Shown here piece after piece: positions 2 to 14,303 of a DNA stretch of 64,000 nucleotides. This DNA comes from Thermogemmata fonticola (lineage in GTDB: Bacteria > Planctomycetota > Planctomycetia > Gemmatales > Gemmataceae): assembly GCF_013694095.1 (NCBI RefSeq), contig NZ_JACEFB010000002.1:372001-436000 (forward strand), read 5' to 3'. The notes below the pieces were generated by a model. It had not been told where the DNA came from and made no database searches. It saw nothing but the letters and a program-made list of their open reading frames with translations. Made by a program: the position numbers and the translations under genes. Every line of letters starts with the position of its first letter. Position 1 is the stretch's first letter.

Positions 2-1750
2 CCCCAATCTCCCCCTCGTGACCATATTCGGGAAGGTGTGGAAACGGTGGTCTTTGTCGTGGTGCTGGTGCTGCTGTTGAAACTGTTTGTGACTGAGGCC
101 TTCGTGATCCCGACCGGCTCGATGGCGGAAACTCTCTACGGATACCAAAAGATCATCACCTGTCCGATGTGCGGGTATCACTTCCCGGTGAATGCCCATG
201 ATGAAGCCGAGGGGAATCCGATCACGCGCCGCCCCTCCCCGCTGGTGGGTTTTTGCTGCCCCAATTGCCGGTATCAAGGACACATCGAGGAAGTCCGCCC
301 CGCTCCCACGCTCAACTCCGGCGATCGGGTGCTGGTTCTCAAACCTCTCTATCATTTCCGTTCGCCGCGACGAGGGGAAGTGGTAGTGTTCCGCTTTCCC
401 GAAAAACCCCAGGACAACTATACTGCTCAGAATTACATCAAACGGGCGATTGGCTTCGGAGGTGAAACGATTGCGATCTTCCGCGGGGATTTATACGTGA
501 CCACGGCCCTGGACTATCCCGAAGAGGAGTGCGATGAGTTCGGCCAGCCCATATACCCACGTCCTGCCGATCCCACGGACTTGTGGAAGCCCCGTTACAT
601 GTACTCTAACGTTTATGACACGAATCCCCGCGCGCTGAGCCTCTTCGAGGCTTCGCGGAAGGCCCATTTTCGTCCGGGAAGCGGGGGATTCACGATCATT
701 CGTAAAGAGGAAGCGCAGGTGCTCGCCGATCGGCGCATTGTCTTCCACAACGACTATCAGCCAGAGGAATTGGTCCGGCAAGCACGGGCTTTGGGGCTAC
801 GGGATGCTCAGGGACAGGAGTTGATTTGGTGGACCCGCTGGTACATCGACCGCGATACCGATGGGGCGTGGACCGTCAATGATCCGGCCCGTCCGACCGT
901 TTTCACCCATGATCATCCGGAGCAGCACTGGATTCGCTATCGCCATTTGGCCCATCCGTGGAAGCGGCGGGGTCCTGATGCCCACGATCCGACACCGCCG
1001 ACTGACATCGCACAGTTGGCTCAACAGAAACCTCTGCCTATCGATAACTTTCTCGGTTACAATGCGGGACGCGATGCTGACAACATCCGAGCCTGGCGCG
1101 ATACCTCCCAAGACCGCTTGTGGGTGGGAGACCTGTTCTTGGAAGCGGAGGTACAATTTGCCAGCAGCGAGACCGAGGTGGTTTTCGAGCTATCGCGCGG
1201 CGTCAATCGCTTTCAGGCTCAGTTCACTCCTGGACGAGTCACCCTCCGGCGGATCGGTAAAGGTGCAGAAGAGTTTGGCACCCCAAGCCGCCCCTGTCGC
1301 ATTCAGGCTGGACAACGCCATCACCTCCGCTTTGCCAATGTCGATGCCCGCTTATGGGTGTGGATCGATGGCCGGCGTGTTGATTTTGGCCCCGAAGCAG
1401 ATTATCTCCCGATGGAACCGGGACCTGAAGACCAAGCTGATCCGGAGGGTTGGGTCTACGCCAATGATGTCGAGCGGCCAGCGAGCATCGGAGTCAAAGG
1501 AAAGGCCACGGTGAGGCATCTGGTGCTCTCCCGAGACATCTACTACACCAGTGCTCGTTTGCCCCCGGATTTCAGTCAGCCGGATGTCTACTACGTCCAG
1601 CCGGGACACTATCTCTGCCTGGGCGATAACAGCGCGCAGAGTTCCGATAGCCGCAAGTGGGGACTGGTGCCGGATCGCCTCCTCTTGGGTAAGGCTGTCT
1701 TTGTTTTCTGGCCAGCATACCCGGAAATGCGCATCGGCTTGATCAAGTGA
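2..1750 (+). CDS. lepB: Signal peptidase I, 5' end cut by window edge, with very large insert
   Basis: Membrane-anchored serine protease that removes signal peptides from exported proteins. The reading frame is open to the left edge, and the residues before the GTG at 38 still look like the family N-terminus, so the true start lies outside. Numbered from that GTG, a membrane helix (about 4-18) is followed by PTGSM with the nucleophile Ser28, a CPMC...CPNC zinc-ribbon-like insert (42-77), and NYIKRAIG with the general base Lys135. The C-terminal box GDNSAQSSDSRKWG is near 530. Between the Lys box and this last box lie about 370 extra residues, part of them (about 360-490) a beta-rich stretch resembling a concanavalin/LamG fold. 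Bacterial enzymes are usually 200-350 residues. All catalytic residues are present, so it is probably active. Confidence 0.93.
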   Translation, partial: PQSPPRDHIREGVETVVFVVVLVLLLKLFVTEAFVIPTGSMAETLYGYQKIITCPMCGYHFPVNAHDEAEGNPITRRPSPLVGFCCPNCRYQGHIEEVRPAPTLNSGDRVLVLKPLYHFRSPRRGEVVVFRFPEKPQDNYTAQNYIKRAIGFGGETIAIFRGDLYVTTALDYPEEECDEFGQPIYPRPADPTDLWKPRYMYSNVYDTNPRALSLFEASRKAHFRPGSGGFTIIRKEEAQVLADRRIVFHNDYQPEELVRQARALGLRDAQGQELIWWTRWYIDRDTDGAWTVNDPARPTVFTHDHPEQHWIRYRHLAHPWKRRGPDAHDPTPPTDIAQLAQQKPLPIDNFLGYNAGRDADNIRAWRDTSQDRLWVGDLFLEAEVQFASSETEVVFELSRGVNRFQAQFTPGRVTLRRIGKGAEEFGTPSRPCRIQAGQRHHLRFANVDARLWVWIDGRRVDFGPEADYLPMEPGPEDQADPEGWVYANDVERPASIGVKGKATVRHLVLSRDIYYTSARLPPDFSQPDVYYVQPGHYLCLGDNSAQSSDSRKWGLVPDRLLLGKAVFVFWPAYPEMRIGLIK

Positions 1751-1980
1751 ACTGTGGCCTGGAGATGTCGGAGGTTAGATCAGAAAAAGCCACTGACATT
1801 CCGGTGTACTCTGGAGTGTTAATTGGTGATGCCCTGATGTGTCGGGTGAACCGGGCACGGGACAGCTTCAGATTGATCACCTTGTTGTGGTCGGACTGAT
1901 TAGCGCAGTGTGATTGCGGACGGCAAATCAGGGAACGCGGGAGCAGACGAACTTGACTCAGGCAGGATGCGAGAGAACCT

Positions 1981-2367
1981 ATGCTTAGCGGTGAGATCCA
2001 AATCCGTGTGCGCTATGCAGAAACAGACCGGATGGGGCTGTTGCATCATGCCAATTATCTGGTCTATTTCGAGCAAGCCCGCACGGAGTTGCTTCGGCAA
2101 TACGGAGCCAGCTACAAGGACCTGGAAGATCAGGGCTACTATCTGGTGATCGCCAAGGTGGAGATCAAGTATAAAAGCCCCGCCTATTATGACGATGTGC
2201 TGACCATCCGCACAACTGTTGTTCGGACGACGCCGGTGCGCATCGAGCATCGCTACGAAGTGTTCCGGGAAGGGGTGCTGATCTGCGAGGGGATGACCAC
2301 CTTGGCATGCGTCGATAAACAGGGCCGATTGCAAGCAATGCCCCGTTGGCTAATGGAGGCGAAGTAG
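1981..2367 (+). CDS. ybgC: Acyl-CoA thioesterase of the YbgC / 4-hydroxybenzoyl-CoA family
   Basis: Single hotdog-domain protein of 128 residues, the usual length for the family. The family motif is clear: AETDRMG with Asp16 in the catalytic position, then HHANYLVYFEQART, where the Tyr/Phe and Glu residues follow the helix of the fold. YbgC-type enzymes hydrolyse acyl-CoA thioesters in the cytoplasm and in many bacteria sit with tol-pal genes. Here the next genes downstream (from 2570) include ExbB/TolQ-like and ExbD/TolR-like proteins, which recalls the ybgC-tolQ-tolR order. That parallel is inference, because 200 bp separate them and the downstream proteins are divergent. No strong Shine-Dalgarno precedes the ATG. 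Confidence 0.88.
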   Translation: MLSGEIQIRVRYAETDRMGLLHHANYLVYFEQARTELLRQYGASYKDLEDQGYYLVIAKVEIKYKSPAYYDDVLTIRTTVVRTTPVRIEHRYEVFREGVLICEGMTTLACVDKQGRLQAMPRWLMEAK

Positions 2368-2569
2368 CCATAACGAAAACGGCTGTTCCGATGGATGGCC
2401 GTGTATCTCTGCCGTTGCTGGTGGGAATGATTTGAGACGGGGATTGGCCGGATGAACCATCCCCTTCCCCTTTTGAATCAGAGGGCATCATTCCACACCG
2501 GGCCTAAGGTTGGTTCCCCAGAAGGTAGGGTGGCGAACGTCCGATAGGGCAACGAGGTAGGGTGCAGAC

Positions 2570-3103
2570 GTGCGGCGCTTCTGGATTCATCATGTATTGC
2601 CGACGATGCTGGCCGCGGTTCCCGTGGTCCTAGCTGCATTAGTGTTTGCCGCGATTCCTCCCGATGTCCGCCAGGAATATCTCCAGCGCGTCCGGAATCA
2701 TCCGATCGACTGGATCATCCTGGGATTAGGTTTTGCCTTGTTCTTAGCCCAAATCTGGCTCTGCCGACGGGCGCTAATCTGGCAGGATCAGTTGGGGGAC
2801 TTTGACATTAGTACGGATCGCTGGCTGAGTCATCTGGCTCAGGGCGCGGAGTGGTTTCCTTTGCTGGGGTTGATGGGTACGGTGATCGCCATCCTCCAGA
2901 CCTTCAGTACGATCACTCCCGGTGCTCGGCCGGATGCCGCGGAGATCATCCGCAAGTACGCGCCAGCGATCACTGCGACGGGGGGCGGACTGTACATGGC
3001 CTTCATCAATATCCTACCAAGTTGGATTGCGAATGTTGGCCGGGATTTGATTCGTACCTTCGGCGGTCCGGCCCTCTTGCCGGAGGCGATGGATGCGGAG
3101 TGA
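2570..3103 (+). CDS. MotA/TolQ/ExbB-like proton channel family membrane protein
   Basis: A 177-residue inner-membrane protein with about four hydrophobic segments (about 10-30, 46-66, 93-113, 130-152). The second half carries the family signature: WFPLLGLMGTVIAILQTF, then a short loop and APAITATGGGLYMAFINI, matching the GLxGTV...AL..T..GL..A pattern of TolQ/ExbB/MotA. These proteins form proton-conducting rings that energise a partner carrying an Asp in its single helix, and such a partner is encoded next (3315). It is shorter than E. coli ExbB (about 240) and lacks a long cytoplasmic loop. The GTG start has a GAGGTAGGG sequence 6-14 nt upstream. The family call is firm; the process it energises is unknown. 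Confidence 0.8.
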   Translation: MRRFWIHHVLPTMLAAVPVVLAALVFAAIPPDVRQEYLQRVRNHPIDWIILGLGFALFLAQIWLCRRALIWQDQLGDFDISTDRWLSHLAQGAEWFPLLGLMGTVIAILQTFSTITPGARPDAAEIIRKYAPAITATGGGLYMAFINILPSWIANVGRDLIRTFGGPALLPEAMDAE

Positions 3104-3314
3104 TGTTCCGGAGCTTTACCCTCAGTCAGAGCTTTGCCAGCGGTGGAAAAGTTGCTTGCATGGCAGTGAGGAGTGACAAAGTAGTCAGGCATTCGGAGGG
3201 TGCAATCCGCGAAAGGCCGCTCAGATGTGGCGATGGCCCGCCAAAGGTTGGGTGAAAACCGTGACGGATGACAGCGTGTGATGGCGGTGAACAGGAAGGG
3301 CGGGAGGATCGAAT

Positions 3315-3860
3315 GTGATTCGTATGCCGCGCCGGTCGGTGACCCGTTTTTTCATCCCCTTGATCGATGTGCTCATTCTGTTGTTTGCCATCTTCCTGCT
3401 GATGCCCTATGTCAGTGATCCGGTGCCAGAGGAGCCAGAACCGAAACCGAAGTCGGACGCTACCGCCTCCGAATCGCCTTTGCCTGAGGATGTTCGCGAA
3501 TTGCAAAAACTCTTGCGGGAAGAGCGGCGTCGAGTCGCTCGACTGGAGGAGGAACGCAAACGACGATTGACCGAGGGACTCCTGGTCTGCGTCTTGCAAA
3601 TCGATCCGCAGGATGGCACCTTGCATTATCATGATGCCGAACGCCAAGATATTCGGAATGAAGCGGATGCCCTGCGTTTGATTGCCCGGCAGAAAGCCTT
3701 GGCGAGTGCCCAAGGGGTGAAAGACCTTTACTTTCTGATCCTCTGGCCTCGCGTACCCAGCGCCTTTCCGACTCAGGCCCAGGAAGCCCAATATCGGCAT
3801 TGGTTCCGCGATGTGCCCTTGGGATTTGACCGCGGAAACGCCAACGCGGGAGGGAAATAA
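3315..3860 (+). CDS. ExbD/TolR-like single-helix membrane protein with coiled coil
   Basis: A 181-residue protein with one N-terminal membrane helix (about 12-31) reading FFIPLIDVLILLFAIF. Asp18 is at the position of the proton-carrying Asp of ExbD (Asp25) and TolR (Asp23). A Pro/Glu-rich linker and a charged coiled-coil-like stretch (about 58-90) follow, then a compact C-terminal region that would lie in the periplasm. Helix, Asp and linker match ExbD/TolR topology, but the periplasmic domain is not a clear ExbD match. It is encoded downstream of the ExbB-like gene and 1 nt before the next gene, so channel partner is the simplest reading. The start is GTG or the ATG three codons later. Confidence 0.72.
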   Translation: MIRMPRRSVTRFFIPLIDVLILLFAIFLLMPYVSDPVPEEPEPKPKSDATASESPLPEDVRELQKLLREERRRVARLEEERKRRLTEGLLVCVLQIDPQDGTLHYHDAERQDIRNEADALRLIARQKALASAQGVKDLYFLILWPRVPSAFPTQAQEAQYRHWFRDVPLGFDRGNANAGGK

Positions 3861-3861
3861 C

Positions 3862-4611
3862 ATGTTTGCTTCAGCCATTCCCATCTCGCCGTCTTTGGGG
3901 CTCGCCGCCATCCGTCCGATGGTTGGTTCCCGAACGCTTTGGGCGAACTGGATGGACAACCTGGCCCGCCAGGCCACCGTGCTTGTCATAAAACTGCTAA
4001 TCATCGCCGGGGCTTATTTAGTTGGCTCGCTCTTGGGAACCTTGCTGGCAGTGGCCCTCAACCGCTGGGTGTTTCGCAAAAAAATGCCGGAGGTGGGAAA
4101 ACAGTTGTGCTCTCTGCTCTGCGGCCTATTGCTGGCACTGTTAGCTGCATTGTTTGTTATGGGTTCGGGGGGAAATGGTTTATTCGGAGGAGGTGGCGGC
4201 GGAGAGGGAAACGGTGAAAATCCCAATCCCGCCCAGAAGGAAGGATCTTCGAATGGCAATCTTCCACCGCGGGACAACGAGGAGAAGCCATCACCTTCTC
4301 AGACTTCGCCTCCGCATCAACGGGAAGTTTCCAGGGTCATTCGCGTCACCGTGTTGGCCGGTGAAGCGGTGCAGAAAATGGGACACTTCTATTTGCTCGA
4401 AGATGATCCCACCCCGCGGACATTCGCCGAGATCACCGAGGCCATCCTGCAACGCTGCTCCAAAACCAGCGAACGCTTAACGGTGTGGATTCTCTTTCTG
4501 GCGGATCCGAGGCGGGCGCCGCCGCTAAATGACCCCAAAGTCACTCGTTTGGTAGATTGGGTCCGACAGGAAGCAGGACTGGATGTCACGTTACCCACGC
4601 GTCCCCGATGA
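3862..4611 (+). CDS. Two-helix membrane protein with Gly-rich linker, third gene of the ExbBD-like/GTPase cluster
   Basis: Family not recognised. The ATG lies 1 nt after the ExbD-like stop with GGGAGG upstream, implying coupling; an in-frame upstream GTG is less likely. The 249-residue product has hydrophobic segments at about 35-65 and 80-105. A low-complexity Gly/Asn run with more than a dozen Gly and a Pro/Ser-rich linker follow, then a conserved-looking C-terminal region of about 90 residues with alternating beta and alpha character. That region (VIRVTVLAGEAVQKMG onward) slightly resembles the periplasmic domain of ExbD/TolR, so the pair might form a heteromeric ExbD-like module. That is inference; the sequence itself shows topology and operon position only. 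Confidence 0.6.
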   Translation: MFASAIPISPSLGLAAIRPMVGSRTLWANWMDNLARQATVLVIKLLIIAGAYLVGSLLGTLLAVALNRWVFRKKMPEVGKQLCSLLCGLLLALLAALFVMGSGGNGLFGGGGGGEGNGENPNPAQKEGSSNGNLPPRDNEEKPSPSQTSPPHQREVSRVIRVTVLAGEAVQKMGHFYLLEDDPTPRTFAEITEAILQRCSKTSERLTVWILFLADPRRAPPLNDPKVTRLVDWVRQEAGLDVTLPTRPR

Positions 4612-4741
4612 AGCAAAGAGGTGAAGGGAAGAGGGCAGAACAAAGCCGAATCAAACCCCAACGGACCCTGGAGGCGGCGGAGAACCGACAGGTGAATCGT
4701 CCGGAAGGTGTACGGCTGCACTTTATCGGTTCGCGGGAATC

Positions 4742-7555
4742 ATGAATCTACCTGCATCAGGAAATGAAAGGCGGACGTTTTCGAGAAATCAGCGCCCGGC
4801 AGCGGATGCGCCTCAAGTTTTACTGTTCGGCCATTCGGGTGCGGGTAAGACGACTCTGTTAGCGTCCTTGATGCGAGCCGGAGAGAGAAAACCGGACGTG
4901 ATCGGCGGGCGTATCATGGATACCTCTGGCCGGTTGACTCAGTTTGCAGAGGCTTTCTACAGCGGCGCGGAACTCCCTCCCACCGAGGCGGAAGTCGTCA
5001 GTTACACGCTTCAGATAGGACCGATCCCCACTCACTTGCCCGACCGGCATGAGGTGTCCTCACAGTCTGTCAGTCTCGCCGCCGATTGGCAGAGTGTTAT
5101 CATCCATGATTGTTCTGGGGAAGCGGTGAAACACTACTTGTCGTCGCTCCCGCCGGAGGGGAGCACCCCGCTTCCACCCTCATTGCCGGCTGGCTTGACC
5201 GAGCATGGGCGAACATCGAGCCAGCATGCGAGGAGAACCGATTCCGGTAGGCCATCCTCTTTTCCCCTTGTCGGGGAGCAGTGGCACACCAAACGTGACC
5301 CAGGAGAATTGCAACAGGTGCTCCAGGAGGCGGATGCGCTGGTGGTGCTGGTGGCGGCCACGGCCTCAGAACTGGAGTTGTCAGAAGCCTTTTCGGAGTT
5401 TCGCCGTTTTCTCTCGGCTTTGCAGGCGGCACGGTGTAGTGCACGGAAGGTGGGCGGTTTCCCAGTCTTTTTAGTTCTGACTCAGTGCGATCGCTTGGCT
5501 TGTCCTGGTGATACCCGTCCGATTTGGGAGTCCCGTGTGCAGGCTCGCAGCGAACGCGCCTATGCTGCCTTTGAAGCCTTTTTGCGCCGGGAGTCGGAGC
5601 CGGAGCTTCCGCCGTCCGACGTCCGGCAAACCACCTTGGCGGAACGCGCCGAGGCGGGCGAGGTTGCGGTGTCGGGCGGCGTGGAGGAATGGACAGAGGA
5701 AGGAGCGCATCGCCTGCTCTTCACGCCGTTTGGCCATTTGGACCTGCATGTGTATGCCGTGGCAGCACGCTGTCCCGGCTTTTCGGCGGTGGCGGAGGGT
5801 GATGCAGCACCTTACCATGTGGCCGAACTTTTCCGCGATGTTTTCCAGGCGGCAGCAGGCCAGCGGCGGCGGCAGCATCAGGTGGACCGCCGCTTGCAAT
5901 GGACGATCCGCAGCATGGGCGCATTCCTGACGGCGGCTCTAACGGTCCTGGTCGTCCTCTTTCTGGACCCTCCTCGTGTGGAGCAACCCACCTTGGCCGA
6001 GATGGTGGCGGGCTACCGCGAGCATGAACCTCCCCCCGCGGAACGCCTGGCAGCAACCCGCTTAGCCCTGCACCGCCAGACCCTCGAGCGTTTCCGGGAT
6101 CATACGGACTTTTGGCAACTTTCCCCGGAATTGCAAGGATTTGTCCTCCAACGCTTGCGGGAAATCGAGGATTATCGGGCTTTACGCCGGCGCCTGGTGT
6201 CTTCAGCCGGTCCTGCCAACTGCCGGACATTGGCGGAACTGGAACAACTGGAGCAGGCCCTGCGCGATGGAGCTTTGTCGATTCCTTCCGGCCACGGCTA
6301 CGATTGGAGCGCGACTGAGGTGGGCCGCTGGCGGGAGAAATGGCTGCATGACATCGCGGTCATTCGGCGAGCGGAACAACAACTCCAGGAGCTATACCGG
6401 GATCGGGTGCGCCTGGTCCAACGGCTGATGGATGTCGATCATTTCTTGGGAAGCTGGCGGGAGGAGGCCAACGTAGTGATTCAGCTTCAGGAGCCTCCCT
6501 ACCGCCTGGAGGAGCCTTTACCGGGTGCGATCTCTGTGCCAGACTTACCCGTGGGACAGGGGACGGCTGTTATCTGGTTCGTTCCCTACCACTTCGAGGG
6601 TGTAGTGCAGTGGCGTGAAGAGTGGCGGCGGTGGCAGCAGCGGTTGGAAGCTCTGCGTGACCTGGCAGATGCCTGCGGCCTGACACACGGGTCAAACCCT
6701 CCGACTCCGCTCCGAGTCCCGGCGGCGAGCGGTTTAGCCACCTCTGCCGAAGGACCAGCCCAGCGGTGGCAGCAATTGCAGCAGCATTACGGCCTGTATC
6801 TGTCCCAGCCCGCCCTGTGGGAAGCCAGTCAGTTTCCGGAACGGATTCGCGTTGTGCTTCAGGACCACAGGTCGCGTTTTCTGCGTGGGGTTGGACGCCA
6901 GTTACGGCAGGAATTGCAACGGCAACTGGGGCAGGTGAACGGGCTGGATGATACGCCGCTCCGGTGGCGGCAAGTCGCCGAACTCTTGCGTCATCCCAGT
7001 GGAGATGTCGCTGCGTGGGGAAAACTTCTGCATGTCGTCCTTCGGCAAGGAGATCTCCAAGCGGCCGAGCCATTAGCAGAGCTGGCAGGGTTTCTCAGCC
7101 ATGAGAGTTTCACGCTGGAGTTGCATGGCGTAGATGTGTGGCTGCCGCCGGACCTGGCTTTGGAGCCACCCCGTCCCGATGGGCCTCTAGTGCTTAAGTG
7201 GGCCGGCCCTATGAGGGAGGAGGTGATTCTACGGTTCCCCCAAATGGGGACACCCCTCCGCGAGGGGTCGGGCCGCCTGTATATCTTCCAGGCGGAAAAG
7301 ATGGAAAAGATTCAGTACCGCCCCGGTGATACCTTGACTCTCGAGTTGCCTTTGCGAGCTGGTCAGGAGACGATGCGGTTGGTATGGGATCGCGGACGAA
7401 GTGCTAGCTATCAGTTCGACGGCATACACCAGCCGCCGAGGTTGATCCGGGCTGATGGACGTACGGAAGCGGCCCGCGGCGTGCGGCTTTCGACTTTGGC
7501 AGGTTCTGTCTGGCCGGTACCTCCTCCGTTGTGGTACGCTGTGCTCAACCCTTGA
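4742..7555 (+). CDS. Large membrane-anchored P-loop GTPase-like protein
   Basis: A 937-residue protein with an N-terminal nucleotide-binding domain: Walker A GHSGAGKTT (30-38), a DCSG motif (123-126) in the place of the G3 DxxG, and TQCD (247-250) in the place of G4 (N/T)KxD, which points to a GTPase of the TRAFAC class. A single membrane helix at about 392-410 is followed by roughly 520 residues rich in Arg/Gln/Glu/Leu helices, then a beta-rich C-terminal region (about 770-920). The layout of GTPase, helix and long helical region loosely recalls IcmF/TssM and the double-GTPase conflict proteins, but I cannot assign a family. It is the last gene of the cluster that starts with the ExbB-like gene. 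The start ATG has only a weak ribosome site. Confidence 0.7.
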   Translation: MNLPASGNERRTFSRNQRPAADAPQVLLFGHSGAGKTTLLASLMRAGERKPDVIGGRIMDTSGRLTQFAEAFYSGAELPPTEAEVVSYTLQIGPIPTHLPDRHEVSSQSVSLAADWQSVIIHDCSGEAVKHYLSSLPPEGSTPLPPSLPAGLTEHGRTSSQHARRTDSGRPSSFPLVGEQWHTKRDPGELQQVLQEADALVVLVAATASELELSEAFSEFRRFLSALQAARCSARKVGGFPVFLVLTQCDRLACPGDTRPIWESRVQARSERAYAAFEAFLRRESEPELPPSDVRQTTLAERAEAGEVAVSGGVEEWTEEGAHRLLFTPFGHLDLHVYAVAARCPGFSAVAEGDAAPYHVAELFRDVFQAAAGQRRRQHQVDRRLQWTIRSMGAFLTAALTVLVVLFLDPPRVEQPTLAEMVAGYREHEPPPAERLAATRLALHRQTLERFRDHTDFWQLSPELQGFVLQRLREIEDYRALRRRLVSSAGPANCRTLAELEQLEQALRDGALSIPSGHGYDWSATEVGRWREKWLHDIAVIRRAEQQLQELYRDRVRLVQRLMDVDHFLGSWREEANVVIQLQEPPYRLEEPLPGAISVPDLPVGQGTAVIWFVPYHFEGVVQWREEWRRWQQRLEALRDLADACGLTHGSNPPTPLRVPAASGLATSAEGPAQRWQQLQQHYGLYLSQPALWEASQFPERIRVVLQDHRSRFLRGVGRQLRQELQRQLGQVNGLDDTPLRWRQVAELLRHPSGDVAAWGKLLHVVLRQGDLQAAEPLAELAGFLSHESFTLELHGVDVWLPPDLALEPPRPDGPLVLKWAGPMREEVILRFPQMGTPLREGSGRLYIFQAEKMEKIQYRPGDTLTLELPLRAGQETMRLVWDRGRSASYQFDGIHQPPRLIRADGRTEAARGVRLSTLAGSVWPVPPPLWYAVLNP

Positions 7556-7782
7556 AGCTGTCTGCTGAATCGGATCGACTGACCTTCTGATCTGAAGAAG
7601 CCGATCCTGCCCGCTGCAAGGCCGGCTCTCCTGCTGGAGTTCGCCTCATCGGAATGCTATCTTGAGGTTGTTGAGTAGGGAGTGGGGCCACGCAGTCCAA
7701 GCGGTATAACAATAGCTAGGCAGGCGGGGTGTCGGCTTGGTTCGCAGAAGGTGACGCCTGTTTGCTAAGGCCGGGAGCAGGC

Positions 7783-8703
7783 ATGAGCGCTATGCACATC
7801 CGGGATATTTTCGCCCAACATCATCCGACATTCAGTTTCGAATTTTTCCCTCCGAAGACGGAAGAGGGCAGCGAGGCATTGTTTCGTACGATCGCTGCCC
7901 TTCAAGAGTTGGAGCCGTCCTTTGTTTCCGTGACTTATGGAGCGGGGGGGTCCACCCGCGACCGGACTCATGATCTGGTAGTACGCATCCAGAAGGAGAC
8001 CCGTTTGACCGCAGTGTCTCATTTGACCTGTGTGTGTCATAGCCGCGAGGAAATCGCCGCGATCCTGGGTCGATACGCTCGTGCCGGAGTCCTGAACATC
8101 TTGGCCCTTCGGGGCGACCCTCCCCGTTCCATGCCGCACTACGATCGGTCCCAAGATGCGTTCCGCTACGCCGCGGAGTTGGTCCGCTTCATTCGTGAGT
8201 TTCCAGAGCCGCCGGACCCCCGTGGTTTTGGGATCGGCGTGGCCGGTTTCCCGGAAGGGCATCCGGAGTGTCCCAACCGCCTCAAGGAGATGGATTACCT
8301 CAAGCGAAAAGTGGATGCCGGAGCTGATTACATTTGCACCCAGTTGTTCTTCGACAATCGGGACTTTTACGACTTCCGGGAACGCTGTGAGTTGGCTGGG
8401 ATCCGCGTTCCCATCATCGCTGGCATCATGCCGATCACGAGCCGTAAAAATCTGGAAACCATGGCGGAGCTAGCAGCCGGTGCTCGCTTTCCGGCCAAGT
8501 TGCTCCGGGCAGTAGGGCGATGCAGCGATGATGAGGATGTTGCGCGGGTCGGTATCAGTTGGGCCACCGAACAATGCGCCGACTTGTTGCACAATCAGGT
8601 CCGCGGCATCCACTTCTACACGCTCAATCGCTCGGATGCCACAGTGCAGATCTATCGGAACCTCGGGGTAAAAAGCTCGCGTGCCCTGCGCCAGGCGATC
8701 TGA
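7783..8703 (+). CDS. metF: 5,10-methylenetetrahydrofolate reductase
   Basis: FAD-dependent cytoplasmic enzyme that reduces methylene-THF to methyl-THF for methionine synthesis. It shows the family start FSFEFFPPKT with Glu20 in the catalytic position, SVTYGAGGS, the LALRGDPP flavin/folate loop and an AGIMPITSRKN stretch near residue 210. Its 306 residues match bacterial MetF (about 296). I chose the ATG at 7783 because GGGAG precedes it by about 7 nt and the family begins there; a GTG at 7729 would add 18 residues of no family character. It stands alone, with ggt downstream on the same strand. No SAM riboswitch pattern was seen in the leader. Confidence 0.96.
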   Translation: MSAMHIRDIFAQHHPTFSFEFFPPKTEEGSEALFRTIAALQELEPSFVSVTYGAGGSTRDRTHDLVVRIQKETRLTAVSHLTCVCHSREEIAAILGRYARAGVLNILALRGDPPRSMPHYDRSQDAFRYAAELVRFIREFPEPPDPRGFGIGVAGFPEGHPECPNRLKEMDYLKRKVDAGADYICTQLFFDNRDFYDFRERCELAGIRVPIIAGIMPITSRKNLETMAELAAGARFPAKLLRAVGRCSDDEDVARVGISWATEQCADLLHNQVRGIHFYTLNRSDATVQIYRNLGVKSSRALRQAI

Positions 8704-11610: not shown

Positions 11611-12816
11611 TCATCTCTCCTGAGCTGTCTGCAACCATTCGGCCAAGCGGGCCAGACCAGCGGTGATGACCTCCCGGCTAGTGGCGAAGGACATGCGGAC
11701 ATATCCCTCCGCACCAAAAGCGACACCGGGCACCAAATTGACATGAGCCTGTTGAAGCAGTGCAGTACAGAAGGACAACGAATCGCTAACCCATAAGCCT
11801 CCGTAGTGCTTGTGGAAGTAAGCGGTCACATCAAAGAAGGCGTAAAAGGCCCCCTCCGGCTCATGCAAACGGACGTGGGGAATCTGGCGGAGGAGCCGGC
11901 AGGTCAATTCCCGGCGGGCCGCAAACTCCGCGCGCATGTGGGCGACGCATTCTTGAGGTCCGTCCAAGGCCGCCACCAAGGCGGCTTGGGAGATACTGCT
12001 GGGGCAACTGGTTTCTTGACTCTGAATGGCATCCATGGCTTTGACCACGTGCCCTGGGGCAATCGCCCAGCCCATGCGCCAGCCGGTCATGGCGTAACTC
12101 TTGCTGGCACCACTGATGGTAATGGTACGCTGCCGCAGCTCCGGGCGGAGTGTGGCGATGCATGTCGGTTGAGCATTCCCATAAGTGAGTTGTTCGTAAA
12201 TCTCATCACTGAGAATGGCGGCGTCACTGTGGTTGAGAAGGGTATCGACTAACTGTTCTAGCTCCTGACGGGTGTACACAGTGCCTGTGGGATTGCAAGG
12301 TGAGTTGATCATCAGTAGGCGCGTCCGCGGTGTCAGAGCCGAGCGGAGTTGCTCCGGGGTGAGTTTGAAGCCGGTCTCCGGTCTCGTTTCCAGGAGTACG
12401 GGTTTAGCACCCGTCATGAGGACGAGGTCGGAATAGCTGACCCAATAGGGACTAGGGATGAGCACTTCATCACCGGGACCAACGGTGGCGGCCAAGGCGT
12501 TGTGGATGGAATGCTTGGCACCGTTGGAAACGATCACATTTTCTGGTTCAATCGCCAGGTTGTGAAAACGCTGATACCAGCGGCAAATGGCGTTTTTGAC
12601 TTCGGGCGTGCCACTGGTCGGTGTGTAGTGGGTCTGGCCGCGGCGCGCCGCCTCAGCGGCAGCAGCACAGATGTGTTCGGGAGTATTAAAATCCGGCTCT
12701 CCCAGACTGAAATCGTAAACAGTGATCCCTGCCGCTTTCAATTGACGCGCCTTGGCTCCCGCTGCTAAAGTGGCCGACGGCTTGATCGACTCCGCAAGTT
12801 TGGAAATCCGGATCAT
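11611..12816 (-). CDS. aspC: Class I/II pyridoxal-phosphate aminotransferase, aspartate aminotransferase type
   Basis: PLP enzyme of 401 residues, fold type I, subgroup I-gamma as in Thermus and Bacillus aspartate aminotransferases. Key blocks are FSLGEPDFNTP, YTPTSGTPEV, NGAKHSI, the NSPCNPTGTV loop with the substrate Asn, SDEIYEQLTY, and SGASKSYAMTGWR with the PLP Lys239. A C-terminal Arg in MSFATSREVI fits the substrate carboxylate site. It would transaminate aspartate with 2-oxoglutarate, although prephenate or other substrates cannot be excluded for this subgroup. It is the first gene of a two-gene operon with the coupled cyclodeaminase-family gene. Confidence 0.93.
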   Translation of the reverse strand: MIRISKLAESIKPSATLAAGAKARQLKAAGITVYDFSLGEPDFNTPEHICAAAAEAARRGQTHYTPTSGTPEVKNAICRWYQRFHNLAIEPENVIVSNGAKHSIHNALAATVGPGDEVLIPSPYWVSYSDLVLMTGAKPVLLETRPETGFKLTPEQLRSALTPRTRLLMINSPCNPTGTVYTRQELEQLVDTLLNHSDAAILSDEIYEQLTYGNAQPTCIATLRPELRQRTITISGASKSYAMTGWRMGWAIAPGHVVKAMDAIQSQETSCPSSISQAALVAALDGPQECVAHMRAEFAARRELTCRLLRQIPHVRLHEPEGAFYAFFDVTAYFHKHYGGLWVSDSLSFCTALLQQAHVNLVPGVAFGAEGYVRMSFATSREVITAGLARLAEWLQTAQER

Positions 12817-12926
12817 GACAGACTCAACCTAACTAAACGGGGAGAAGGTCCTTTCCCCTCATCGTACCGAAAATGCCCCGGTTGGACATGATCGATCGCA
12901 CTCCCCAGGTGCAGTGTAAGGAGCCG

Positions 12927-14303
12927 ATGATGTTGGGGATTTCCCGAGCGGCCAGGAGTTTGCACCACGTGGTGCTGTGTGTGCATCGCTACCCCCCGGC
13001 GCTAGGCGGAGCGGAGACCTATGCCCAACGCCTGGCTGGCTACCTGCATGCGGAAGGGGGCTGCCACGTTCGCGTCTGGACGACGACGGCTCGGACCTTG
13101 GAACAGATGTGGCATCCCCTGCCATCGCTCTACTCTCCTATACGCGAACGGCGCGGCGAAGCGGTCATCGAACGCTTTCCGCCGTTACGGGGATTTCCGG
13201 GGCGGCGGTGGGTGCTCAAAGCCCTCTCGCTATTACCCCATCCTTTGTGGCGGAGCCTGACGGTGCCGTGCAATCCGATCTGTCCCTCCATGTGGCACCA
13301 GGCCCAACGCTATGCGGGACCGGTGCATGCGGTCCATGCGTTGGCATTCCCTTACGCCTTTATTGCCGCTTGTGCCTGGCGACTGGCGCGGTGCCGTCAG
13401 GTCCCCTTTTTTCTAACCCCCTTTCTCCATTTTGGCGATCTGAACGATCCCCGTGATCCGATCCGTCGGGCCTACACGGCCTGGCATCTCCGCTGGCTAT
13501 TACGGCAAGCCGACGGTGTTTTTGTCCAAACGGAGGCGGAACGGCAGGTGGTCTTAGCGTGTGGGGTGGCACCGCAGCGGGTCCATCTTCAAGGGATGGG
13601 GGTAGATATCCGTGAATGCACGGGAGGGAACCGACGGGAAACACGGCGGCGATGGGGAATCGATGAACAGACACCCGTGATCGGACATCTGGCCAACCTG
13701 TCCCGTGCGAAGGGGACCATCGATCTGCTCCAAGCCGCGGAACGCTTGCAGAAGCGAGGCATTCCGTGCCGCCTTGTGTTGGCAGGACCGGCTATGCCCG
13801 ACTTCCGCCGCGTCTGGTCGCAGTGCTCTGGCTCAGATATTGTCTATCTCGGCCCGCTCTCACCCCAGCAAAAAAAAGATTTTTTCGCGGCGATTGATCT
13901 GCTGGCCCTCCCTTCGCGAACCGATTCCTTTGGCCTGGTGCTGCTAGAAGCCTGGGCTAATGCGAGACCGAATGTTGCTTACCGGGCAGGGGGTCCTGGT
14001 GTGTTGATCCGCCACGAACAGGACGGCTTGTTGGCCCGCTGTGGAGATGTCAATGACTTGACGGAGCAATTGGCTCGCTTGCTTTGCAATCCCTCTTGGC
14101 GCACTATGATGGGAAGCCGGGGACAGCAGCGAATCGCGCACGAATTCCAATGGCAGGACAAACTGGATTTGGTCTGGCAAGTAATGGCGGAAACGGCCCA
14201 GCGAAAACAGCAGCGTAGCTCCCGGACATTAATTTCCCTGTTCCCCTCCTCCTTTCCCGCTTCTGCCGCTTCTACTCAAGCCGGAGCGGGCCTCTGTCGA
14301 TAG
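12927..14303 (+). CDS. Glycosyltransferase family 4 (GT-B fold)
   Basis: A 458-residue glycosyltransferase. The N-terminal domain has HRYPPALGGAETYAQRL, the typical acceptor-side Gly-rich loop. The C-terminal domain has GHLANLSRAKGTIDLLQA and the donor-site block DSFGLVLLEAWANARPNV, which supplies the EX7E-like Glu residues, then AGGPGVLIRHEQDGLL. It probably transfers a sugar from a nucleotide donor in envelope glycan synthesis. I chose the ATG at 12927 because TAAGGAG lies 5-10 nt upstream; upstream in-frame ATGs have no such site. It is divergent from the aminotransferase gene, with a leader of about 110 bp between them, and a small lipoprotein gene follows. Confidence 0.9.
   Translation: MMLGISRAARSLHHVVLCVHRYPPALGGAETYAQRLAGYLHAEGGCHVRVWTTTARTLEQMWHPLPSLYSPIRERRGEAVIERFPPLRGFPGRRWVLKALSLLPHPLWRSLTVPCNPICPSMWHQAQRYAGPVHAVHALAFPYAFIAACAWRLARCRQVPFFLTPFLHFGDLNDPRDPIRRAYTAWHLRWLLRQADGVFVQTEAERQVVLACGVAPQRVHLQGMGVDIRECTGGNRRETRRRWGIDEQTPVIGHLANLSRAKGTIDLLQAAERLQKRGIPCRLVLAGPAMPDFRRVWSQCSGSDIVYLGPLSPQQKKDFFAAIDLLALPSRTDSFGLVLLEAWANARPNVAYRAGGPGVLIRHEQDGLLARCGDVNDLTEQLARLLCNPSWRTMMGSRGQQRIAHEFQWQDKLDLVWQVMAETAQRKQQRSSRTLISLFPSSFPASAASTQAGAGLCR

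Follow-up and report, generated by a model that had tools for sequence, protein, structure and literature searches.

A 64,000 nucleotide (nt) stretch of the Thermogemmata fonticola genome (contig NZ_JACEFB010000002.1, positions 372,001 to 436,000; termed the window, whose coordinates are used below) carries four adjacent genes that encode a TolQ/ExbB-like channel subunit, a TolR/ExbD-like subunit, a two-helix membrane protein and a membrane-anchored GTPase. On balance, we favor the interpretation that these genes specify a single trans-envelope machine, driven by protons and belonging to the 5:2 motors (TolQR/ExbBD/MotAB), in which the GTPase protein would be the transducer. The block lepB-ybgC-exbB-exbD-TM2-GTPase, wherein TM2 is the two-helix protein, is core in the Gemmata family and extends to its sister family. 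A search of the open-access literature, with subscription papers mostly outside it, gave no account in which an ExbB/TolQ motor and a membrane GTPase are coupled in this setting. This agrees with a preliminary description of the DNA, made from sequence alone, in which the combination was not recognized as a described system.

Components of the four-gene block

As the preliminary description stated, all four open reading frames (ORFs) are on the + strand, and 1 nt separates the TAA of the second (3858-3860) from the ATG of the third (3862). The genes and the features of their products (TM, transmembrane; aa, amino acids) are as follows.

2570-3103, +, TolQ/ExbB-like channel subunit, 177 aa, GTG start (PF01618; PDB TolQ match; alignment A1)
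2879-2881, +, Thr104 of GLMGTV, invariant, aligned with GTV of TolQ
2978-2980, +, Thr137 of ITATGGG, invariant, aligned with IAT of TolQ TM3
3315-3860, +, TolR/ExbD-like subunit, 181 aa; TM helix 12-30, charged linker, C-terminal domain
3366-3368, +, Asp18 in TM helix FFIPLIDVLILLF, proton-carrier position, invariant in 19 homologues
3862-4611, +, second TolR/ExbD-type protein by predicted fold, 249 aa; two TM helices, Gly-rich linker, C-terminal ExbD-like domain
4333-4608, +, ExbD/TolR-like periplasmic domain of the third protein (residues 158-249; predicted-fold match)
4742-7555, +, GTPase-TM-periplasmic protein, 937 aa
4829-4852, +, Walker A/G1 motif GHSGAGKT (residues 30-37)
5108-5119, +, G3-type motif DCSG (residues 123-126)
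5480-5491, +, G4-type motif TQCD (residues 247-250)
5912-5968, +, single TM helix (residues 391-409 by hydropathy; helix 360-406 in the model)
5969-7552, +, predicted periplasmic region, helical at ~418-786, with a C-terminal beta-rich domain at ~790-925 (model mdb4fdc5cb5d3)

The first protein scores 36.3 bits against PF01618 (cut-off 22.9), the curated profile for the MotA/TolQ/ExbB family, and its best PDB sequence match is TolQ (E 0.004). With a match above the cut-off, the ExbB similarity does not prove to be chance, an outcome that the preliminary description had allowed for. The GLxGTV helix pair recognized there is real: GLxGTV and AITATG are conserved across 19 homologues, and Thr104 and Thr137 correspond to the pore threonines found in the last two TM helices of this family. 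The cytoplasmic loop of the protein is very short. The second protein has the single N-terminal TM helix with a proton-carrying Asp characteristic of ExbD and TolR, its ExbD-type helix FFIPLIDVLILLFAIFLLM holding the Asp18 noted earlier. The Pfam ExbD model (PF02472) does not match the window protein and gives weak matches in 5 of the 19 homologues (best E 0.034).

An AlphaFold2 model of the third protein (md1feabd59560) has helices at residues 23-69 and 77-103, a low-confidence Gly/Pro linker and a C-terminal domain (158-249; predicted local distance difference test (pLDDT) about 80-95) with the order beta-beta-alpha-beta-alpha-beta. The first five ranks of a VIA-align comparison are all TolR or ExbD structures, headed by TolR 5by4 (Z 8.5, 3.4 Å, 85 residues) and followed by ExbD entries at Z 8.3-7.6 (8p9r at 8.3, 8vgd at 8.2, 8vgc at 8.0, and 8pek); the next unrelated entries have Z ≤6.1. 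The ExbD profile built from this same cluster matches the domain at E 0.0023, whereas controls gave 0.09-0.76. The periplasmic ExbD/TolR fold is therefore predicted for this protein, which has two TM helices and no conserved TM Asp in place of the usual one helix with Asp. By predicted fold, the third protein appears to be a second ExbD/TolR-type subunit, and thus the parts list would comprise one TolQ-like subunit and two TolR-like subunits that differ from each other. The preliminary description was correct about the two helices and the Gly-rich linker of what it took for a plain membrane protein, and missed the C-terminal domain.

For the fourth gene, the ORF, the motifs and hydropathy agree with the earlier account of a 937-residue protein with Walker A, DCSG and TQCD motifs and a central helix. 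The GTPase domain is predicted to fold like members of the Ras superfamily, with Rag/Gtr GTPases as the nearest structures (Z up to 17.8). Small GTPases fill the VIA list for this protein, which consequently says nothing on fold novelty of the periplasmic part (418-925), predicted at high confidence (mostly pLDDT over 85). A profile of 59 sequences matched TssM of other planctomycetes over the G3-G4 region (E 8e-11, 97% probability) and a LepA control GTPase at E 1.8e-4 (48%), both values being pairwise and uncalibrated; the match indicates a GTPase domain related to that of TssM/IcmF. When a full-length alignment with TssM is forced, the two are collinear through the TM, helical and beta parts, each part being individually non-significant (E 0.02-0.3). 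The curated TssM/IcmF model TIGR03348 gives 14.8 bits against a cut-off of 388, the IcmF-related domain PF06761 was not found in the T. fonticola genome, and the GTPase profile, searched against PDB sequences, returned P-loop matches only. PF19993 (DO-GTPase2) reaches 23.0 bits, below its cut-off of 27, and matches 7 of 13 homologues at E <0.01. The GTPase is thus only distantly TssM-like and DO-GTPase-like and matched no well-described family, including the TssM/IcmF and double-GTPase families suggested for comparison in the preliminary description.

Nearly all close relatives retain an intact Walker A motif. In the genera g201, g196, g204 and g207, called basal from the lower similarity of these lineages and not from a tree, the gene at the fourth position encodes a protein of 517-672 aa. 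Throughout this basal group, which includes the sister-family genome G282, the TM helix and periplasmic arm match at E 2.5e-46 without a canonical P-loop, and the P-loop position in G282 reads GPPESDKS. Orthologues that lack a canonical P-loop and keep the TM helix and periplasmic arm are located as follows.

L134, 9091-11046
L136, 8165-10078
L137, 430-2385
L138, 6217-8163
L102, 7935-9899

Because the P-loop is missing from basal lineages but the membrane and periplasmic parts are kept, GTP binding is dispensable there and those parts are not. Judging from these sequences, GTP is probably a switch rather than an engine, and its binding resembles an optional addition to a trans-envelope machine. 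The preliminary description was right to pair a proton channel with a membrane GTPase, and its central idea, a channel that drives or is gated by the GTPase, is weakened by the absence of the P-loop in several lineages.

Other forms of the fourth gene were also seen. At locus L104 (8195-10569) it is present as two ORFs of 539 aa (GTPase and TM) and 270 aa (the later part), and short forms of about 510-570 aa occur in several genera. At a sister-family locus (L139, 6608-9137), TM2 is followed from 9137 by another gene set in which no GTPase was recognized.

Conservation and distribution of the block

The ExbB-like query identified 18 relatives among genome contigs (Gemmataceae, Gemmata and other planctomycetes). 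As far as the contigs extend, the order LepB-LepB-YbgC-ExbB-ExbD-TM2-GTPase is kept in the 18 fetched loci, a conservation far beyond chance; the third gene of L063 fell under the tblastn limit and is present by eye, and the contig of L064 ends inside it. Identity to the window proteins is 54-88% for ExbB, 46-77% for ExbD, 27-58% for TM2 and 28-54% for the GTPase. The ExbD profile detects 61 of the 248 genomes of the class, corresponding to 58 of the 61 from the Gemmata family and 3 from the sister family. All 50 genomes detected with the GTPase profile are ExbD-positive, 11 have ExbD only, and none has the GTPase without ExbD (Fisher p 5e-42, uncorrected for shared ancestry). This wide co-occurrence in the family runs counter to the prospect, raised in the preliminary description, that the genes keep company in this genome only. 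Outside the order, no occurrence was found in 334 phylum-wide genomes, for which the best two candidates per genome were scored, such that distant ones may be missed. The order LepB-YbgC-ExbB-ExbD-TM2-GTPase is identical in G282, and the block is therefore older than the family.

Several genomes carry the block in pieces. The G432 assembly, a single contig of 9.38 Mb, has YbgC-ExbB-ExbD at position 3.13 Mb, with TM2-GTPase-MTHFR-GGT far away at 9.36 Mb, and the same separation is seen in G279 and G265. In G255 and G426 the break lies between TM2 and the GTPase gene, leaving lepB through TM2 apart from it. The two distinct break points favor at least two separate break events, and all parts are retained in each broken cluster. 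Co-occurrence, together with retention despite the splitting of clusters, supports the conclusion that the genes functionally belong together.

A second, divergent cluster resides in the same genome.

L100, 9092-14083 (contig C7, about 63091-68082), ExbB-ExbD-TM-TM-DO-GTPase1-TM and a 268 aa membrane protein

Its 137 aa ExbB matches the window family at E 6e-17, its 149 aa ExbD has the TM Asp, and its two two-TM proteins are mutually related (E 7e-7). The GTPase-TM protein passes PF19975 (DO-GTPase1; 31.2 bits, cut-off 27) and matches the window family at E 8e-10. The presence of this unusual combination twice in one genome strengthens the motor-GTPase link. The cluster is uncommon, being present in 2 of 59 relatives and interrupted by a stop in one of the two, and could be a conflict or accessory version. 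None of 12 neighborhoods read around DO-GTPase1 (PF19975) genes elsewhere in the phylum contains this ExbB/ExbD. Three planctomycetes outside the class encode a short ExbB and an ExbD, then a one-TM protein and then a long membrane-anchored protein, which is beta-helix-like by eye.

L145, 6098-9414
L146, 6972-9955
L149, 8964-11863

These distant modules suggest that the fourth partner is exchangeable. A profile comparison of the third protein with the third gene of the distant clusters (A6) was not significant.

Genes adjoining the block

Two genes precede the block in the window.

38-1750, +, signal peptidase I (LepB), second of two copies (PF10502, 108.5 bits; L101 ORF 13760-15751)
1981-2367, +, YbgC/FadM-type hotdog acyl-CoA thioesterase (TIGR00051, 95.9 bits, cut-off 68.7; synteny)

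Both are constant upstream neighbors, the lepB ORF having its start ~240 nt ahead of the window. With TIGR00051 above its cut-off, the upstream hotdog thioesterase of the preliminary description is indeed of the YbgC/FadM family and gives the block a ybgC-tolQ-tolR order. A LepA-like GTPase gene lies ahead of lepB in the relatives read, and MTHFR and GGT often come next after the GTPase gene. A Pfam scan of the neighboring genes from 38 to 8703 identified Peptidase_S26, 4HBT, MotA_ExbB and MTHFR, and no GAP1 partner. In most relatives exbB and exbD share 4 nt, versus a gap of 211 nt in the window. Scans for promoters and terminators gave no more signals than in shuffled sequence. Ahead of ybgC, signal peptidase I is encoded by two neighboring genes that have diverged and carry large insertions (38-1750 in the window; 12047-13579 at L101), an arrangement kept in most loci read.

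A proposed mechanism and its alternatives

From these data we infer complex formation, proton flow, a GTP switch, a periplasmic target and a cellular role. The TolQ-like ring (2570-3103) would conduct protons past Asp18 of the TolR-like axle (3315-3860). The second TolR-like protein, with its extra TM helix (3862-4611), would be part of either this axle or the periplasmic head. Held by one TM helix, the fourth protein (4742-7555) would serve as transducer, its periplasmic arm of ~500 residues taking up force or anchoring to the wall or outer membrane. The Ras-fold GTPase on the cytoplasmic side, which most resembles TssM/IcmF and double-GTPases, could be the switch that sets where or when the motor engages. 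A likely job would be envelope maintenance or remodeling during growth and budding, in place of Tol-Pal. A search of 14 genomes from the class, that of T. fonticola among them, gave no TolB_N (PF04052), although positive controls were detected. Given this result and the tolQR-type ybgC neighborhood, a Tol-Pal-like envelope role is our leading guess. The fuller proposal, in which the GTP state of a TssM-like transducer controls periplasmic force exerted by a 5:2 motor that is the Gemmata-lineage stand-in for Tol-Pal, is put forward tentatively.

The block resembles the Tol-Pal system (YbgC-TolQ-TolR-TolA-TolB-Pal) in its ybgC-tolQ-tolR order, its TolQ/TolR-type motor and a partner with a single TM helix and a large periplasmic part. 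It differs in having two TolR-type subunits, a partner that bears a GTPase and no TolA-type transducer motif, as well as in the undetected TolB. Bacteria of the PVC (Planctomycetes-Verrucomicrobia-Chlamydiae) group have a system composed of TolQ, a pair of heterologous TolR proteins and a vWA transducer with an SHLS motif (PMC12204202). That system, also found in planctomycetes, likewise has one TolQ-like and two different TolR-like proteins followed by a membrane-tethered transducer, which in the window is a GTPase-TM-helical-beta protein instead of a vWA protein with SHLS. GTPases go unmentioned in PMC12204202.

Several observations weigh against a single motor with a GTPase transducer. The TM helix of the fourth protein, SMGAFLTAALTVLVVLFLD, has no His/SHLS docking motif of TolA/TonB and therefore gives no sign of docking on the ring in the manner of TolA. 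The cytoplasmic parts of the ring protein are so short that a GTPase on that side would find little surface to contact. The assignment of the second protein to ExbD is drawn from its TM motif and weak profile matches, the Z near 8 for the fold match of the third protein is only modest, and Foldseek alone found no match for that protein at E <0.001. In addition, no GTPase was recognized after TM2 in the sister-family genomes G285 and G286, one contig ending soon after.

Among other explanations, the fourth protein might be a gate, by which a cytoplasmic or envelope signal opens or closes ExbBD, the system thereby delivering proton flow instead of mechanical work. The intact GTPase motifs of most family members and the lack of a TolA-like SHLS motif fit such a role. 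However, basal lineages without the P-loop retain the channel, the second ExbD and the arm, which points to the arm, rather than the GTPase, as the indispensable part, and distribution as a core block gives no hint of a lethal effector; a gated channel is thus unlikely. We consider it rather unlikely that the fourth protein is the inner-membrane scaffold of a TssM/IcmF-like anchoring or export complex in which ExbBD powers opening or transport. TssM, the best profile match of the GTPase domain, shares with it a cytoplasmic GTPase domain, a TM region and a large periplasmic helical and beta part, and the collinear, non-significant alignment extends through these. Nonetheless, the fourth protein lacks the N-terminal TM hairpin of TssM/IcmF and a curated match to that family, it is partnered by ExbBD, the genome has no detected IcmF-related domain, and the block holds no other secretion gene. 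It is quite improbable that ExbBD and the GTPase have unrelated jobs and adjoin through operon inertia. Housekeeping genes (lepB, ybgC, MTHFR and GGT) do share the block, but both halves persist where it is broken at two different points, even megabases apart in G432, the divergent second cluster carries the same combination, and 0 of 248 genomes have the GTPase without ExbD.

The gliding motor AglRQS-MglA of Myxococcus is built from one TolQ, two TolR and a Ras-fold GTPase. The window block has the same kinds of parts, as would be expected of a surface motility or polarity machine, yet MglA is small, soluble and encoded apart, whereas the GTPase here is within a large membrane-anchored protein and no gliding-type genes adjoin the block. 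To our knowledge, gliding is not known for Gemmata relatives, and we judge a motility machine very improbable. The least credible explanation is a DO-GTPase conflict system that recruited ExbBD for defense. The sub-threshold PF19993 match and the sporadic second cluster, whose GTPase passes PF19975, connect the fourth protein to the GTPase family of such systems, in which GAP1 and variable effectors accompany the GTPase (Kaur et al., 2020; PMC7159879). ExbB, ExbD and TolQ are unmentioned in that paper. The window block is instead core, stable in the family, located beside lepB and ybgC and without a variable effector. The defense device entertained in the preliminary description was not borne out, no defense family of substance having been matched, and a defense role is unlikely. 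A defense island was considered and rejected: PADLOC matches are confined to the P-loop, and plasmids and viral contigs gave no relative of the GTPase.

Implications

Whereas 5:2 motors are known, a GTP-switched force transducer would be a new reading of such a machine, and we offer it as no more than a possible one. The relationships described above suggest a common root of motor transducers and TssM/DO-type membrane GTPases. Moreover, the basal lineages provide a natural case of a machine maintained despite decay of its GTPase domain, thereby separating engine from switch.

In E. coli, comparable proton-driven membrane motors act on the outer membrane. Members of the Gemmata lineage bud and have extensive internal membranes, and Gemmata obscuriglobus has been the subject of published genetic studies (PMC6606645). 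Planctomycetes are described as lacking FtsZ (PMC12283558). A core, family-wide motor block located beside ybgC would be a direct and testable candidate for the device that supplies the planctomycete outer membrane with energy during budding.

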